Source: Neocallimastix lanati (nom. inval.)
Lineage: Eukaryota > Neocallimastigomycota > Neocallimastigomycetes > Neocallimastigales > Neocallimastigaceae
Direction of reading: 5' to 3'
Assembly: GCA_016946835.1 (NCBI GenBank)
Contig: JACVTC010000087.1
Span: 655,001 to 675,000 of the forward strand
DNA length: 20,000 nt
Both the position numbers and the translations under genes were made by a program. The first letter of the stretch is position 1, and each line of letters starts with the position of its first letter. Positions 4,396 to 19,636 of the stretch are shown here, one piece after another. The notes under the pieces were generated by a model. It was not told the DNA's origin. It saw only the letters and a list, made by a program, of their open reading frames with translations, and did not search any database.

Positions 4396-5778
4396 ATATC
4401 TATCTAAATCTATATTCATATCTATCTTAATAGGAATTATTAGATATATATAGAGATGAAAATATTACTCGGGCCTTAAAGGCAAAGAAAGGAGGGGCTA
4501 CCGATGATGAATTAAAATACTTAAAAACAGTGATCTATCGACCCAGTGAGGATGAAAATGATATTAAACCTCCTGTGAAAGAAATATCTAATTTATCCTC
4601 TGAGTTTTCCACTAATAGTATTAATAATAACAATAATAATAATAATGATAATGATAGTTTTACAGTATCTGGAATTGAAGGGAATTCAAATCCTAATACT
4701 CTAGATAATGATTATAATTATAAACAAGGACAGAAACAGGAACCGGAACAAGAACAGAAATATTTAAGTGAACGACCATTAACACCAAATTCAGAAAACG
4801 AGAAGTCACCCATAACAAGAGATAAAGGTAAAGGTAAAGGAAAAGAAGCAGAGGTAGATAATGAAAATGAAAATAACTATGAATCAGCACTCAATGCCGA
4901 AACATTACCAAATACAAGTACGATCCAAACGAATACCATTAAGGATTATCATAATGGAAAACCACCATTAACTCCTATTTCTAAAAATAATAATAATAAC
5001 GCTTCCTCCTCTTCATTGCACTCAATAACTAATGAAGAGATGGAAAGATCATCAGTGACTCCAACTGAAGTATCACAAAATAACTGTCAACCAAGAACTT
5101 CATCGTCAAAATCCGAAACTCCTACGGATAAAACAATAAAATCAGCAGGTAATAATGATAGTAGAATTATTTATAATGAAAAAACATGTTCCATTTGTTT
5201 TGAAGATTTTCATATCAATGAAAAAATTATTATGCTGGAAGCCTGTTCTCATATGTAAGTAGAAAAAAAAAAAAAAAAAAAAAACTATATATATATATTA
5301 TTATTATTATTATTATTATTATTTTATAAAATTATATTTAAAAATTAGTAAATAATACAGTTATTTATAAAAAAAATTTTTTTTTTTATTTAATTTTATA
5401 TATATTTTTAAATCCTATATATATAATGATTATAATTGTAATATTTAAATTTTTTGTACTATTCTATTCCATTAAAATAGTTTCCATCGCCATTGTATTG
5501 CCAGTTGGTTAAAAATTAAAAAAGATTGTCCAATATGTCGAAGAGATGTCATTTTCAATAGTGATAAAAAGAAAGGAAAGGATAAAGAGATTAGTCGATC
5601 AAGGTCTTCCTCAGTATCTACCGCTCATACCCACTCCAGTCGTCGTAACAGAATTAATTCTCTAACAAATAATACTACCACAAATAATTCTTCAGTATAT
5701 ACTTCCAGAGATAACTCCAGAGATAATTCCAGAGATAATTTAAATAATCCTGGAAATAATTCTATTGTAAATGATTAA
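1828..5778 (+). CDS. Membrane-anchored Ser/His-rich RING-H2 protein (putative E3 ubiquitin ligase), four exons
   Basis: Preferred model: exons 1828-3562, 3954-4141, 4434-5254 and 5481-5778, giving 1013 aa. The RING-H2 domain lies at residues 893-934: C893-x2-C896-x15-C912-x-H914-x2-H917-x2-C920-x10-C931-x2-C934, with the usual Trp (W924) and Pro (P932). RING-H2 proteins are typically ubiquitin E3 ligases that bind E2 enzymes through two zinc ions; that role here is inferred. The N-terminus has a short hydrophobic segment (about 21-33) followed by a basic stretch (34-74), which suggests a membrane anchor. Then come an Asn run and an acidic run (88-129), and a long Ser-rich part with His-Ser (283-299) and His-Ala/Tyr (429-448) repeats. 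Residues about 610-680 look more ordered. The third and fourth exons are certain, because the RING is split exactly across their intron. Alternative: two genes, 1828-3633 (601 aa) and 3938-5778 (440 aa, with the RING at 320-361). Confidence 0.72.
3563..3953 (+). other. Predicted intron 1 of the RING-H2 gene (phase 1)
   Basis: It runs from a consensus GTAAGT at 3563 to TAG at 3951-3953 (391 bases). Reading through the donor gives a Lys/Asn-rich tail and a stop at 3631-3633, of the kind also produced by reading into the next intron. Donor and acceptor phases match: 578 codons plus one base before, two bases of a codon after. If this intron is not used, the sequence holds a stop codon, a 304-base gap and the start ATG at 3938 of a separate gene. 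Confidence 0.55.
4142..4433 (+). other. Intron 2 of the RING-H2 gene (phase 0)
   Basis: GTAAGG at 4142 to TAG at 4431-4433 (292 bases), with poly(A), (TA)n tracts and no coding signal. Joining 4141 to 4434 keeps the reading frame and leads into a charged, coding-like stretch (4434-4530) that lies upstream of the first possible start in that exon. Confidence 0.85.
5255..5480 (+). other. Intron 3 of the RING-H2 gene, interrupting the RING finger (phase 2)
   Basis: GTAAGT at 5255 to TAG at 5478-5480 (226 bases), with poly(A), (TTA)n and poly(T). The splice falls within the codon right after the fourth zinc ligand (His of the C-x-H pair). Joining restores H-x2-H-x2-C and the last C-x2-C with canonical spacing, which is strong evidence for these exact sites. 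Confidence 0.95.
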
Positions 5779-12930: not shown

Positions 12931-13414
12931 ATAATAATAATAATAAAAAGTTATTAAAAAAATATAAAAATTAGAGGTCTTTTTTATAAAATTAATAAAA
13001 AAGCTAACTTTATTAAAAAAAAAAAAATAAATAAATAAGTAATAGTATATATTATTTATAAATTAGTAATAATATTAGTATTTGAAATAAACTAATACAA
13101 TAATTTATAGTAATATAGCTAGATCTTATAATAGAGTATATAAATTATTAATTATATATGTATATAAAATCTTTTGTATACAATATATATATATATATTA
13201 GAAATTTTGAAAATTTTCAAAAATAGTAAAATAAAATATAAAATATCATAGTAGAATATATAATTTAATCATATTAACATAATTATTAAATATATATCAA
13301 AATATTATTCCCTTTTAAAATATTGAATATTAATACCTAACTAAACAAAAAAAAAAAAAAAAAAAAAAATAAAAGAAAATAAAAGAAAATAAAAGAAAAA
13401 AAATTATACACAAA
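11977..13414. other. AT-rich region upstream of the deacetylase gene
   Basis: No gene is supported. It holds poly(A) runs (12899-12928 and 13349-13369), (TA)n and TAA microsatellites, and imperfect hairpins around 12120-12200. The last 45 bases before the ATG at 13415 contain three AAAATAAAAG-type words and end in ACACAAA, a plausible A-rich fungal leader. Confidence 0.5.
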
Positions 13415-16243
13415 ATGAGCTTTTTAAATAAAACTTTAATTTTAACTTTTATTTATTTCATAGTTGGCTGTTTAGCAGCTAGCACTCCAATTGGAATGAA
13501 GATTTTAGTTATTTCAACTGGTGAACCAGAATCTATGATCAAGTCACTTCAATCTTACTCAATTGAATATGATTATTTAGAATACAATGTTGAACATCCA
13601 CTTGTTGGTAATTTACCATTATACACTGAAGACAATCAACCAAAGTATTATGGTATTGTTCTTGGAAATGGTTCTCTTTCTGTTTACTTTGAAGAAGAAG
13701 ACGATTGGGGAAGTATTTTATCTGAAAAACAATGGAGTTATCTTAGAGAATACCAAAGAAAATACGGTATCAGAATTGTTGCTCTTGATGATGGTCCAGA
13801 TGAGGAATATGGAACTGAAATTGCTGATAGTAAATTCTGGGGTATTGAAAGTGTTCAACAAATGAAAATTGCTGATAATGATATGGCAAGAGCTATTTTC
13901 AAAGAAGCTGGTATTAAGGAAACCGCTGAAATTGATACTACCAGGTAAATGTTTTTATATATATAAATTTAAATTAATTCAATTTACCTTTTTTTTTTTT
14001 AAAAAAAAAAATTAAGTTTAAATGAAAGTATTGAATTAAAACAAAACAAAAATAAAGATTAAGTTTATATATAATATAAATTTTTTTTAAAAAAAAAATA
14101 TAGTAAATATAAAGAGCTATATGAAATATATATAAGTTTATATATTATTTTCAAATTTTATTATAGTTTTATGTTGAAATTTATTTATATGAATTATTAT
14201 GACAAAAAGAAATTTATTAGTATATGTTATATTAATTATTTTTTTTTAAATTTTAAATTTTATTTAATTATATTCATTTATTATAATAGTTTATACCATG
14301 TACCAGTTAAGATTATCAGTAAAGATGCTATTCCAATTATGACTTTCCAACCAAATTCTGAATTTAAGAAGGAATCAGTTGCTGTTGCTTACTACAAGGA
14401 TAAATATGGTTGTGAAAGACTTTCATTCTTCATTGGTTTCGGTGACTGGTCTCTTAACAGTGTTATGTTAAATCACTTATGGATCTCATGGATTACTCGC
14501 TCTTTATATGCTGGTGAAAGACATGTTACTTTCACTCCACACATTGATGATGTTTTCCTTTCTACTGGTAGAATCAATTATGAAACTGGAGAGTTAGAAG
14601 GTTCCAAAAATGCTTACCGTAGTACCGTCGAAGATTTTGAAGACTTAAAGAAATGGCAAGATTCAATTGTTGATGAACTTCCAGAAGGTTCATTTATTAG
14701 ATGTGAAGTTGCTTTCAATGGTAATGGCATTGTATCTACAATTGATCCATCTAAAGCTCTTGAAGTTGATGGTGAAAGATATTGTGATATTGAATACATT
14801 AAGGAACCTGGTACTGGTAAAGACAGATGGCCATCTTTCAATTGGACACTTCCATACGATAGTAAATACCTTAGAAAAGATGATTTATTTGCCTACTTTG
14901 AAAAAGAAGAAAACAACAAAAACTTCTTCTTCTCTTCTCACACTTTCACTCATGAAAACTTAGATGAAGCTACCACTTCTGATGTTGATAATGAAATTAG
15001 AAATAATATTGAAATTGCTAAGCTTTTAGGTATTCATGGTAAGTCTAATTGGTCTGGTAAGTCTATTATTACTCCACAAATTTCAGGTTTAAGAAACGCT
15101 GATGCTCTTACTGTCTTTAAGAAGTACGGTATTGTTTCTGGAACTGGTGATTTATCTCGTCCAATTGTTAATGAAGAAAATCCATACTTACCATTCTTTA
15201 CTACTAAAGAAAGTAGTAATTACGAAGGTTTCCCAATTATCCCACGTACTCCAACTGAAGTTTACTACAGTAGTGCTAATACTGAAGAAAATACATTTAT
15301 CTATAACATGATATATGGTGAAGAAGTTGGTGAAACTACATGGGATCAAATTCTTGAACGTGAAATTGATCGTACTCTTACTTTAATGTTAAATTTAAGA
15401 AATGAAGCTCATCAATTCCATCAAATTAATATTCGTAGTCGTGAAAATGATGAAGATGGTAACAAAAGTATTCTTCAAATTTGGTGTACTGCTGTTCTTA
15501 AGAAATACACTAGCTATGTTGATTGGCCAGTTGAATCCTTAAAGCTTGATGACCAAGCTCAATTATACATTGACAGATACAACAGAATTGAAAACTGTGA
15601 AGTTAGTAAGAATCTTATTCTTGATGGAGATTATATTACTGGTGTTGAAGTTACTCCAAAGAAGATTAAGAAGGATTGTAAGATTCCAATTACTGTTCCA
15701 AAGAACGTTTACAAGGATAAAAAGGACACCAAGATTACCTATGAAAAGAGAGGTAATGATCATTTAGTTGCTTGGGTTAGCTTTGAAGAAGGCGATTCTG
15801 AATCAAAGACCATTAAGTTAAACCCACCACTTGCATGGGCTAATGGTGCCATTCAAGGTGAGGAAGTTCCAGAAAAGGATGATGAAGAAGAAAAACCAGC
15901 CGAAACTTGCTGGAGTGAAACCCTTGGCTACAGATGTTGTAAGGATAATGAAAACATTGTTCAATACATCGATGAAGATGGATGGTGGGGTGTTACTAAT
16001 GATGAACAACCAGATTGGTGTGGTATCGTTAAGAATGAAAAATGCTGGGCAGAAAACTTTGGATTACCATGCTGTGAATCAGAAGATTTAGACTTTGTTC
16101 ATGATAATGGTGTTATCGGTTATGAAGAAAAGTATGAAAATGATGAATCTAGACCAGCTGGAGGTTGGTGTGGTATTAAGAGTGCTGTTGACCGTGTTAA
16201 CAGTGATGCCATAGATTTATTCAGAGATCAACTTGGTTTTTAA
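13415..16243 (+). CDS. Secreted Agd3-like polysaccharide deacetylase with two fungal dockerins
   Basis: Exons 13415-13944 and 14290-16243 encode 827 aa. Residues 1-22 form a signal peptide (hydrophobic core, cleavage near LAA/S). About 28-240 resembles the N-terminal CBM87-type region and about 250-600 a CE18-type deacetylase domain as in fungal Agd3, which removes acetyl groups from N-acetylgalactosamine polymers. Visible catalytic-type motifs are HIDD (D263 and D264, base and metal ligand by analogy), SHTFTHE (H394 and H398, the H-x3-H metal pair) and HQFHQIN (H551 and H554). A beta-rich part (about 615-690) and an acidic linker (701-715) follow. Then come two CBM10-like dockerins at 717-756 (CW, CC at 726-727, WCGI) and 762-806 (CW, CC at 771-772, WCGI). 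The dockerins should attach the enzyme to fungal cellulosome scaffoldins. Codon use is strongly biased (CCA, GGT, AAG, AGA), which suggests high expression. The substrate is inferred from the family, not shown. Confidence 0.85.
13945..14289 (+). other. Intron of the deacetylase gene (phase 2)
   Basis: GTAAAT at 13945 to TAG at 14287-14289 (345 bases). A second TAG at 14164-14166 is in the same phase and would give a 222-base intron, adding 41 residues in frame. Those residues are dominated by F, I, Y, K and N, as expected from translated intron, so the downstream site is preferred. Confidence 0.8.

Positions 16244-16895: not shown

Positions 16896-16930
<35 letters not shown>
16874..16930. 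repeat. (TATG)6 microsatellite followed by a 32-base poly(A) run
   Basis: Six TATG units (16874-16897) are followed by 32 A residues (16899-16930). Retroelement coding sequence starts directly after the A run. It may be the tail of another retroposed copy, or an A-rich target site. No matching target duplication was found on its left. Confidence 0.85.
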
Positions 16931-16932
<2 letters not shown>

Positions 16933-16950
16933 TTTACTGGGATAGAGTTA

Positions 16951-16963
16951 TAGCAGAAAAATC
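16951..16963. repeat. Left target-site duplication of the 16964-18430 element
   Basis: TAGCAGAAAAATC occurs here and again at 18431-18443 directly after the element's poly(A) tail, with 13 of 13 bases identical. Confidence 0.85.
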
Positions 16964-17128
16964 CAAATTTAAAAATACTAGAAATTTATTCAAGCTCAGC
17001 CTTGAATACCCTCATTTAAGTTTAGGTTTTAACTGGATCTTATGATTAAGAGCTGGTTACAAATATAATACAACTATTGCAATAAGAAGTGGTAGAGTTT
17101 CTGACGACTGTCCTAAATTCTTCCCTTG

Positions 17129-17141
17129 TTGTGGAAAAGGT
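17129..17141. repeat. Left target-site duplication of the nested 17142-17502 insert
   Basis: TTGTGGAAAAGGT occurs here and again at 17503-17515, immediately after a 16-base poly(A) run, with 13 of 13 bases identical. Confidence 0.9.
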
Positions 17142-17502
17142 AGGTTCAAATCGAATCGTACTACTACTACCAAGAGCGTCAATGTTGAAGAAACAGTAAG
17201 ACAGGCCATCAGGGCTAGCGCAACCAATGAAGATCATAATTTTGTATCTTAAAATTAGGATTAACATTGCGAAGACAAAATTAATTATTATACTTCAGTA
17301 TAATAATGCCCTTGTGAAGTCTTATAAATATTAATTAAATGAAACAAGAATATATTATACCATTATTTTTTTTTTTTTTTTTAATTTGAGTTTTATTTTT
17401 TGTTTATTTTTTATCTTTTTTTCTCTTTATTACATGTATTTTATCATATATTTAATTAATAAAGATGAAACAAGTTTGCTGCCGTTAAAAAAAAAAAAAA
17501 AA
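17142..17502 (+). mobile_element. Nested retroposed insert (361 bp) with polyadenylation signal and poly(A) tail
   Basis: It starts right after the duplicated TTGTGGAAAAGGT and ends with A16 (17487-17502), preceded by AATAAA at 17458-17463 and the word TTGCTGCCGTT. The first part encodes the C-terminal end of an unrecognised protein (SVNVEETVRQA...EDHNFVS, stop at about 17252). The rest is a T-rich 3' UTR with a perfect 10-bp hairpin (17284-17307). This is the structure of a 5'-truncated, reverse-transcribed mRNA 3' end. A relative lies at about 19190-19636. Without the insert, the host frame reads from CCGKG straight into E-stop-SFIHWIFE. Confidence 0.88.
17458..17463 (+). promoter_or_regulatory. 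Polyadenylation signal AATAAA of the nested insert
   Basis: AATAAA lies 24 bases before the start of the 16-base A tail at 17487, a normal distance for mRNA 3'-end formation. Confidence 0.75.
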
Positions 17503-17515
17503 TTGTGGAAAAGGT
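17503..17515. repeat. Right target-site duplication of the nested insert
   Basis: TTGTGGAAAAGGT is an exact copy of 17129-17141 and directly abuts the poly(A) tail. Confidence 0.9.
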
Positions 17516-17618
17516 GAATAATCTTTTATCCATTGGATATTTGAATACTCTGCCATGTCTTTATGTTGATGTAAATCTTTAGATTTTATTGATAATTTAT
17601 TCATTATATTTGCCAATA

Positions 17619-17641
17619 AAGTAAGGAATCTTTCCTTACTT
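17619..17641. repeat. Perfect 10-bp hairpin in the retroelement body
   Basis: AAGTAAGGAA (17619-17628) and TTCCTTACTT (17632-17641) pair around a TCT loop. A second hairpin, TATTCTAA/TTAGAATA, follows at 17648-17667. Both lie within degraded coding sequence. Confidence 0.7.
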
Positions 17642-17726
17642 CCTTCTTATTCTAATATTTTAGAATATGAAAATTTCATAAGCAGGTATATTTATACATT
17701 TCTTCTTGGTGGAATTTCAGCTTTAG

Positions 17727-18095
17727 ATGAGCTACAATTCGATACTGGGGAACAAGAGACATTTAAGTGAACAACTCCTAAAAAGTTCACAGGGGTCTAC
17801 TATTCCGTATATTGTGGGGTTTGCGGAATATCTTGTTAATATAATACCGATCATCAGTAGCTCTCTTGAGTTACTTTTTGAGAGGTTTAGTAAAAACACT
17901 TTCATTACCAAGAGTGTCGACGTCGTACCGATATGGCAAAGGAATAATGCAGTTAGAAATCCTGTTAATTCTCATCAATACACATTAACTAACAGCACAG
18001 TTCCTAACACAGTACCTATAGAAAGTAATTCAACTTTTGATGATCTTTCTTGTGCTTCAGGGGAGAGTTTAGTGGATACCACACTATTTATTTAA
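17727..18095 (+). pseudogene. C-terminal fragment of the retroelement protein (122 codons)
   Basis: This is the longest open stretch in the retroelement region, and it is not an independent gene. It overlaps, in another frame, the end of the upstream frame that carries HWIFE and LLGG, so a frameshift separates two parts of one protein. It reads as mixed polar and hydrophobic sequence (HLSEQLLKSSQGSTIPYIVG) with an Asn/Ser-rich end finishing in GESLVDTTLFI. The GE-x-LV end matches the older copy near 19020. The ATG at 17727 is probably internal. Confidence 0.6.
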
Positions 18096-18376
18096 AGATG
18101 TTACTTCTTTGTTTTATTATTTTAGATTTAACTGGTGATCATGTTACTACTGGTAGTATACATCATACCGAATTTTTTTTTAACTCTTGAACTTATTTTT
18201 ATTCTTTATTACATTAAATTTTCTTTGATTAATTAAAATTTGTTATTTCTTAAATTTTTATTATTTTTTATTTTACTTAATCTTTTATATACATTTTATT
18301 TTTTTTATCTTTTAATTATATAATGTATTTTTTTTTAATAATTAAATGTAATAAATAAAAATATTTTAATCTATTT

Positions 18377-18382
18377 AATAAA
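18377..18382 (+). promoter_or_regulatory. Polyadenylation signal AATAAA of the 16964-18430 element
   Basis: AATAAA lies about 30 bases before the 19-base A tail (18412-18430). Confidence 0.7.
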
Positions 18383-18430
18383 GCACTGAAAGTGTATTCT
18401 CTTCCTAGTCTAAAAAAAAAAAAAAAAAAA

Positions 18431-18443
18431 TAGCAGAAAAATC
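18431..18443. repeat. Right target-site duplication of the 16964-18430 element
   Basis: TAGCAGAAAAATC is an exact copy of 16951-16963, directly after the poly(A) tail. The older retroelement copy resumes behind it. Confidence 0.85.
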
Positions 18444-19189
18444 AACCAAGGCTATGGCCTTTTAGGGAAAATAAACTTAATAAAACTAGAGACTTCCTAA
18501 AGCTCAACTTTAAGTATCTTGAATTTAGCATTGGTTTCCGATGAGTACTTCGTGCCAAGATGTGGATATAAAATTCGATGCTCGTATTGCCAAAGCTGCC
18601 AATAGGGTTAAAGACAACTTGTCCAGAACGAAGCCTTTGTTGTTATAGAAAATATAATAATCCTCGATTGGAACACATTGGTTTTCTAAATGTTATCTTT
18701 TCCGTTAATTTCGAATGAAATATTTTAAGGATATTGAAAAACTTTATGAAAATTTTTTTATAATTTCCATATATGTGTCCAAATATCAAATAGTAATGTA
18801 AATACTGTTTTCACAGATATGAATAATATAGAATCAAATCAAGTACAAATTTTGATAGTAGCAACGAAGTATTTAATATTAATAATAATAACAACAGACA
18901 TAATATTGTTAATAATAATAGAATTAGTGATAGTGAAAATAGGAATATTAATATTAGTCATAATGAAAATAATAGTATCGTTACTAATAATGTAGTGAAT
19001 AGTTCAATTGGTGAAAATCTTGTTAAATAAGCATCTCTTCCACCAAGAAGGAAGAGGTACAGATATTATTGATTTAAATTATAAAAAGGAATGGAATATT
19101 TTGTTTTAAGAACCAAATTATTTCTGGTGATTATTCAAAAACGCCATTCTTAGGTACAATCTGCAGCTCTCTTTACAGAAATTATGCCT

Positions 19190-19636
19190 AGGGCTAATAC
19201 TCGACAAGGGTTGTTATTCCGACAGTAATATGCGCAAATTAACCAGGAGCGTCAACGCTGAAAATGCAGTTAAGACAAGCTAGCATGGGCCAATGCCTCT
19301 GAAGGAGAAGACCATAATTTCCTTTCAGATAGTCAATTCAAACTCTAATCTGGAATAAGAATTCCTTTTAAAGCAGAGATCTTATAATCTGGAGGTAAGG
19401 TTCGATGCCAATGAACTTTTTACTGAATCTAGTTATACGTTTTATTTTGAATATTACTTTTTTATTTCGATTTATTATTCTATATATTATTAATATTATT
19501 ATGTTCATATTGGACAAATAATATTTATTTTTTTTTTTAATTGAGTGTTTTTTATCTTTTTAAAAAAAAATATGCATGAAAAAATTTATAAATAAATAGA
19601 GTTTAAAGTTCGCAATAATTGCTGCTGTAAAAAAAA
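19190..19636 (+). mobile_element. Degraded second copy of the nested-insert family
   Basis: Plus-strand translation gives RSVNAENAV, then after a frameshift ANASEGEDHNFLSD, parallel to SVNVEETV...NEDHNFVS of the insert at 17142-17502. The 3' end matches too: AATAAA at 19591-19596, then TTGCTGCTGT (19619-19628) and an A run (19629-19636) merging into AAT repeats. Stops and frameshifts show it is dead. The left boundary is uncertain; coding-like sequence at 19031-19190 could belong to this copy or to the older RT copy. Confidence 0.65.

Follow-up and report, generated by a model that had tools for sequence, protein, structure and literature searches.

Nested LINE copies in Neocallimastix lanati and the orientation of self-insertion in their families

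Integration of long interspersed nuclear elements (LINEs) involves a nick in the target, reverse transcription from an A tail that may stop early, and second-strand synthesis. In Drosophila, the telomeric arrays of HeT-A, TART, and TAHRE run in one orientation. Among green algae, Zepp LINEs are described as nesting through a mechanism directed at copies already present, often with 5' truncation (PMC8226300); in Coccomyxa, Zepp forms clusters of nested elements, one per chromosome, that are probably centromeric (PMC3446292). Self-stacking LINEs have been connected with centromeres in these algae (PMC8226300, PMC3446292). The titles and abstract openings surveyed contain nothing on LINEs of gut fungi. 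Long terminal repeat (LTR) elements are discussed in PMC8778642. Here we report on a stretch of 20,000 nucleotides, called the window below, from the gut fungus Neocallimastix lanati (contig JACVTC010000087.1). It almost certainly holds three related endonuclease-bearing LINEs, E1, E2, and E3, nested by successive insertion, E2 into E1 and then E3 into E2. The nest itself is ordinary LINE biology and yields a clean order of insertions; what merits further attention is that whole families of this fungal genome insert into themselves on the same strand.

Three nested LINE copies

An earlier, sequence-only reading of the window had claimed two exact 13-bp target-site duplications with each right copy behind an A tail, and both are present (Table 1). 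Within the window TAGCAGAAAAATC occurs only as the two copies of the outer duplication and TTGTGGAAAAGGT only as those of the inner one, and neither 13-mer turned up in 200 shuffles (0/200). An A run stands immediately before each right copy, and 29 bases (outer) or 23 bases (inner) separate it from an AATAAA upstream. The outer duplication could be extended to 14 bp by the preceding A, the right-hand A being indistinguishable from the tail. Removal of positions 17142-17515 had been proposed to rejoin CCGKG of a zinc knuckle to HWIFE in frame. The frame is indeed continuous across the inner insert, which lies in the zinc-knuckle codons of E2; the inserted body itself is shorter than proposed, namely the 361 bp at 17142-17502, as the longer span also includes the right-hand duplication. 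One codon past this site the E2 copy of the window carries a stop codon (GAA TAA). L008 is the sole one of 19 searched paralogs with the identical 15 bases there, so that the stop is possibly older than the E3 insert; going by this shared stretch, E2 may already have been inactive when E3 inserted.

Paralogs were taken from the window's own genome, a 199-Mb assembly of 762 contigs in which the window is C749:655001-675000. For the empty-site comparison the flanks were joined by script, with one copy of each 13-mer kept, and aligned to these paralogs. At the inner site 12 of 19 E2 paralogs have a single 13-mer at 12/13 or 13/13 identical bases with flanks on both sides, and L018 runs across at 8/13. 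A stricter contiguity flag set by script gives 10/19, with L018 included and L002, L006, and L007 left out. The latter three show small indels near the inner site, and their matches to the window come in two pieces that overlap by exactly 13 bases. Of the 19 E1 paralogs, 17 run uninterrupted through the outer site and agree with the 13-mer at 9-11 of its 13 bases.

Intact family members with the 13-mers as internal sequence would speak against nesting; what the comparison returned, at 12/19 inner and 17/19 outer sites, is uninterrupted paralogs, and the 13-mers are therefore flanks and not conserved internal repeats. It is hence barely conceivable that they are internal repeats of one intact element whose middle is plain element sequence: paralogs read straight through either site and carry the sequence once, E3 and E2 are found separately elsewhere in the genome, and no point in support of such repeats was found. 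Several observations nevertheless weigh against a nest of three insertions. Six of 19 paralogs at the inner site and 2 of 19 at the outer site are gapped or do not cover it, and L006/L007 and L060/L061 resemble duplicates of single copies, which makes the counts partly dependent. The empty sites are paralogous (from the same genome), not orthologous. A target-site duplication of E1 itself was searched for and not found.

The paralogs also show that E2 is truncated and bear on the relative age of the three layers. Matches to E2 paralogs reach 94% identity. Five of them (L002, L003, L005, L007, L017) match from the first base of E2 and share a further 96-200 upstream bases with L009 at 93.8-94.8%, whereas the window upstream of E2 shares only a 26-base stretch with L009. 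E2 is 5'-truncated, because the paralogs continue together upstream and the window does not; L004 and L011, which start matching further in, are uninformative here. E3 is 95.3-96.7% identical to 29 copies chosen as best matches, and these have a median identity of 99.1% among themselves, which suggests recent E3 activity. One particular E3 3' end, A tail included, is present in 424 exact copies in the genome. For E1 the best full-length paralogs show about 77% identity, and over its first half the figure is 85% at best. Thus the nesting order agrees with age as judged by similarity (E1 about 77%, E2 94%, E3 95.3-96.7%). An A run of about 31 bases (16899-16930) after GTAT repeats abuts the truncated start of E1; it may be a tail left by another insertion, or else a target site rich in A.

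Empty sites and similarity ages both support the order given by the sequence-only reading, in which an old reverse transcriptase copy received a truncated copy and this in turn a short insert. The short insert is a real insertion, and is now seen to be the 3' end of a LINE. A short interspersed nuclear element (SINE) or other separate short element was considered for it and rejected, as its 361 bp correspond to the 3' end of a LINE of 5,386 bp. Target-primed retroposition by LINE machinery, likewise proposed before, is supported by duplications, A tails, truncation, and protein domains. Each copy would have entered by target-primed reverse transcription and been 5'-truncated on the way, the 5' end of E1 being uncertain. 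An endonuclease would nick the strand complementary to the sense strand of the older copy at the left edge of the later duplication, reverse transcription would start at the A tail and stop early, and second-strand synthesis would leave the 13-bp duplications.

Table 1. Pieces of the nest in window coordinates, and loci of further nested junctions
Feature	Position	Strand	Remarks
E1, oldest LINE copy, left piece	16931..16963	+	33 bases, 91% identity to E1 paralogs, sense; paralogs contiguous over site
Outer target-site duplication, left copy	16951..16963	+	TAGCAGAAAAATC
E2, 5'-truncated LINE copy, left piece	16964..17141	+	C-terminal codons of reverse transcriptase protein to zinc knuckle
Inner target-site duplication, left copy	17129..17141	+	TTGTGGAAAAGGT
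E3, 5'-truncated LINE 3' end	17142..17502	+	361 bp; AATAAA 17458-17463, A tail 17487-17502
Inner target-site duplication, right copy	17503..17515	+	TTGTGGAAAAGGT
E2, right piece	17516..18430	+	3' end; AATAAA 18377-18382, A tail 18412-18430
Outer target-site duplication, right copy	18431..18443	+	TAGCAGAAAAATC
E1, right piece	18444..19636	+	decayed LINE through 3' end and short A run; paralogs about 77% identity
Nested junctions read on both sides			L001, L021, L025, L040, L048, L041/L071, L050/L116, L075/L118, L095/L120

Same-strand self-nesting across the genome

All three layers of the nest lie in sense to each other, and much the same is seen in the sampled copies of their families. Readable 3' junctions of E1, E2, and E3 copies number 103 (40 chosen E3 copies and 63 of 70 loci, with L006, L061, and five loci without a clear A run omitted), and 41 of these enter LINE sequence within 15 bases of the A tail. 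The nested junctions comprise 40 sense and 1 antisense case (two-sided binomial 4e-11), a count that includes the window's own two junctions and in which some library pieces may extend beyond the LINE. The 40 E3 copies, picked before their flanks were read, give 12 sense and 0 antisense; they were chosen by hand among the first 72 of 100 places (out of 424) and are not a formal random sample. A query with the E3 protein over 480 bases downstream finds LINE codons in sense in 41 flanks and in antisense in 1 (14 and 1 within the 40 chosen copies), where one earliest match per flank is counted and L028, L029, and L033, probably one event, are included. In the copies sampled, insertions of these LINE families into their own kind are thus almost always in sense.

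Such junctions might in principle arise with no insertion at all. If reverse transcriptase switched between LINE RNAs, a chimeric cDNA would place an A tail next to sense LINE sequence; this would yield sense junctions only, and at most of the nested junctions in the 40:1 count only the 3' side was read. Nine nested junctions could, however, be read on both sides (Table 1). All are sense, with duplications of at least 10 bases and LINE sequence on both sides, and because of these duplications they are insertions and not cDNA chimeras. For some of the nine, one or two leading As of the duplication may belong to the tail, and for L025 the match between the left flank and the target LINE already ends 60 bases before the site. 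We consider chimeric cDNA a distinctly improbable source of the bias.

Some results run counter to a general strand rule. The antisense exception in the junction count, L038, is a 60-base AT-rich match. The antisense protein case is a different one, L082; it starts at a distance of 21 bases from the tail and probably represents a genuine antisense nest that fell outside the 15-base junction count. Ten left-junction windows were fetched, placed on the assumption of full-length copies or, once, of a short copy; three are among the nine, and seven show no clear duplication. No nick-site motif was seen by eye at the junctions. Base composition was examined as a cause of the sense bias and rejected, A and T being near balanced in E1 and E3; the right piece of E2 is T-rich.

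The bias is local. Adjacent 3' ends separated by less than 10 kb share a strand in 34 cases and lie on opposite strands in 3, as against 78 and 85 for those more than 10 kb apart. Of a set of 100 places, 74 entered this count, the remaining 26 duplicating places already in it, and the 34:3 ratio is partly dependent since some contigs are duplicated. Among the first 100 E3 ends alone the figures below 10 kb are 16 and 1, and these ends include 17 adjacent E3 pairs within 10 kb where about 2 would be expected with an even spread.

Same-strand neighbours could also stem from tandem or segmental duplication, and some duplication does exist, as L028, L029, and L033 share their first flanking bases in three contigs. 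This explanation appears highly improbable: among the first 100 ends, E3 pairs on the same strand are separated by 95 to 6,594 bases, no two of the 40 chosen E3 copies have their first 15 flanking bases in common, and of the 41 nested junctions only one pair could be aligned from its start for over 100 bases, at 77%. A regional strand bias set by replication-fork direction, independent of LINE targets, would be in keeping with the strand preferences relative to replication that have been reported for LINE-1. Pairs 10-50 kb apart, on the other hand, are evenly divided (12 same, 12 opposite), a reach that would be shorter than usual replicons, which leaves fork direction an unlikely cause.

Antisense nests may also have been inserted and lost later, inverted repeats being unstable or triggering silencing. 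Such loss would give a local bias that fades with distance, as found (34:3 versus 78:85). Against it, the bias is equally strong for targets that share only 64-80% identity with the library copy (12 sense versus 1 antisense). Later loss therefore strikes us as doubtful, if worth keeping in mind. We tentatively lean towards a strand rule that would arise at integration, for instance by an RNA-protein complex nicking the template strand of transcribed LINE copies. It is conceivable, with somewhat less than even chances, that this takes the form of a strand-specific self-homing, whereby the complex would find copies of its own group, probably transcribed ones, and nick the template strand only. 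If this is true, each new copy would be added head-to-tail within an older one, at places scattered through the genome. With 424 E3 3' ends and young copies with readable junctions, both self-landing and strand choice are testable in this genome.

Several further arrangements were seen at the junctions. L020, L034, L039, and L109 are sense insertions in the same asparagine-rich low-complexity stretch of their target LINE (L054_E1-type, about 1979-2000). In L081 the 5' end of another full-length-type E3 follows head-to-tail, four bases past the E3 A tail. In the 3' flanks of L032, L085, L089, and L098, E3 copies adjoin another repeat; three of these flanks share a reverse-strand frame, and the fourth was likened to them by eye.

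Neighbouring sequence

Upstream of the nest, a gene with Agd3 CBM87, deacetylase, and CBM_10 domains extends over two reading frames at 13412-16243, possibly with an intron near 13950-14330. At 4434-5778 a low-complexity protein with a RING-like zinc finger is encoded, apparently over two frames; its Pfam match is below the curated cut-off. The GC content is near 10% in several stretches of the window. Together, the Agd3 and CBM_10 domains and the very low GC would be in keeping with an anaerobic gut fungus.

LINE class and comparison with known systems

A full-length member of the E3 family (C46:394378-399763, 5,386 bp) has TTGTTACTAATA on both sides as a 12-bp duplication, and itself sits in sense within the reverse transcriptase codons of an older LINE. 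The open frame of this E3 member was scanned as two pieces and contains Exo_endo_phos and RVT_1, the former with an E value of 2e-8 and above the curated cut-off. RVT_1 was found in 3 of 5 scanned pieces of E1-, E2-, and E3-type, with E values down to 2.7e-37. No RNase H domain was found at E 0.01 in the pieces scanned. Between the two terminal segments of 1,200 bases in the full-length E3, no shared repeat exceeds 51 bases (best E 0.001), hence there are no long terminal repeats. Reverse transcriptase, A tail, 5' truncation, and target-site duplications, together with the endonuclease and the lack of LTRs in the full-length E3, make these elements APE-type non-LTR retrotransposons (LINEs).

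The best matches among solved structures are chains of human LINE-1 ORF2p, ahead of R2, which is a ranking of matches and not a clade placement. The fungal elements resemble the LINE-1 kind in their Exo_endo_phos and RVT_1 domains, A tail, 5' truncation, and target duplications. In contrast to LINE-1, which has two open reading frames, the full-length E3 shows a single long one, the largest upstream frame having 55 codons.

With regard to self-nesting, a survey of titles and abstract openings on same-orientation insertion and self-insertion returned nothing closer than Zepp, which does not mean that such a strand rule is missing from the literature. By analogy, Zepp would be the closest known behaviour to the self-nesting seen here. 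As far as the sources surveyed describe it, both insert into copies of themselves, forming nests, and both show 5' truncation. Zepp forms one cluster per chromosome, whereas the fungal E3 ends are spread over many contigs, and the likeness noted here is one of behaviour. According to the abstract openings surveyed, the Drosophila elements HeT-A, TART, and TAHRE are similar in forming tandem repeats of non-LTR copies; they are added to chromosome ends, whereas the fungal insertions interrupt older copies and leave duplications.
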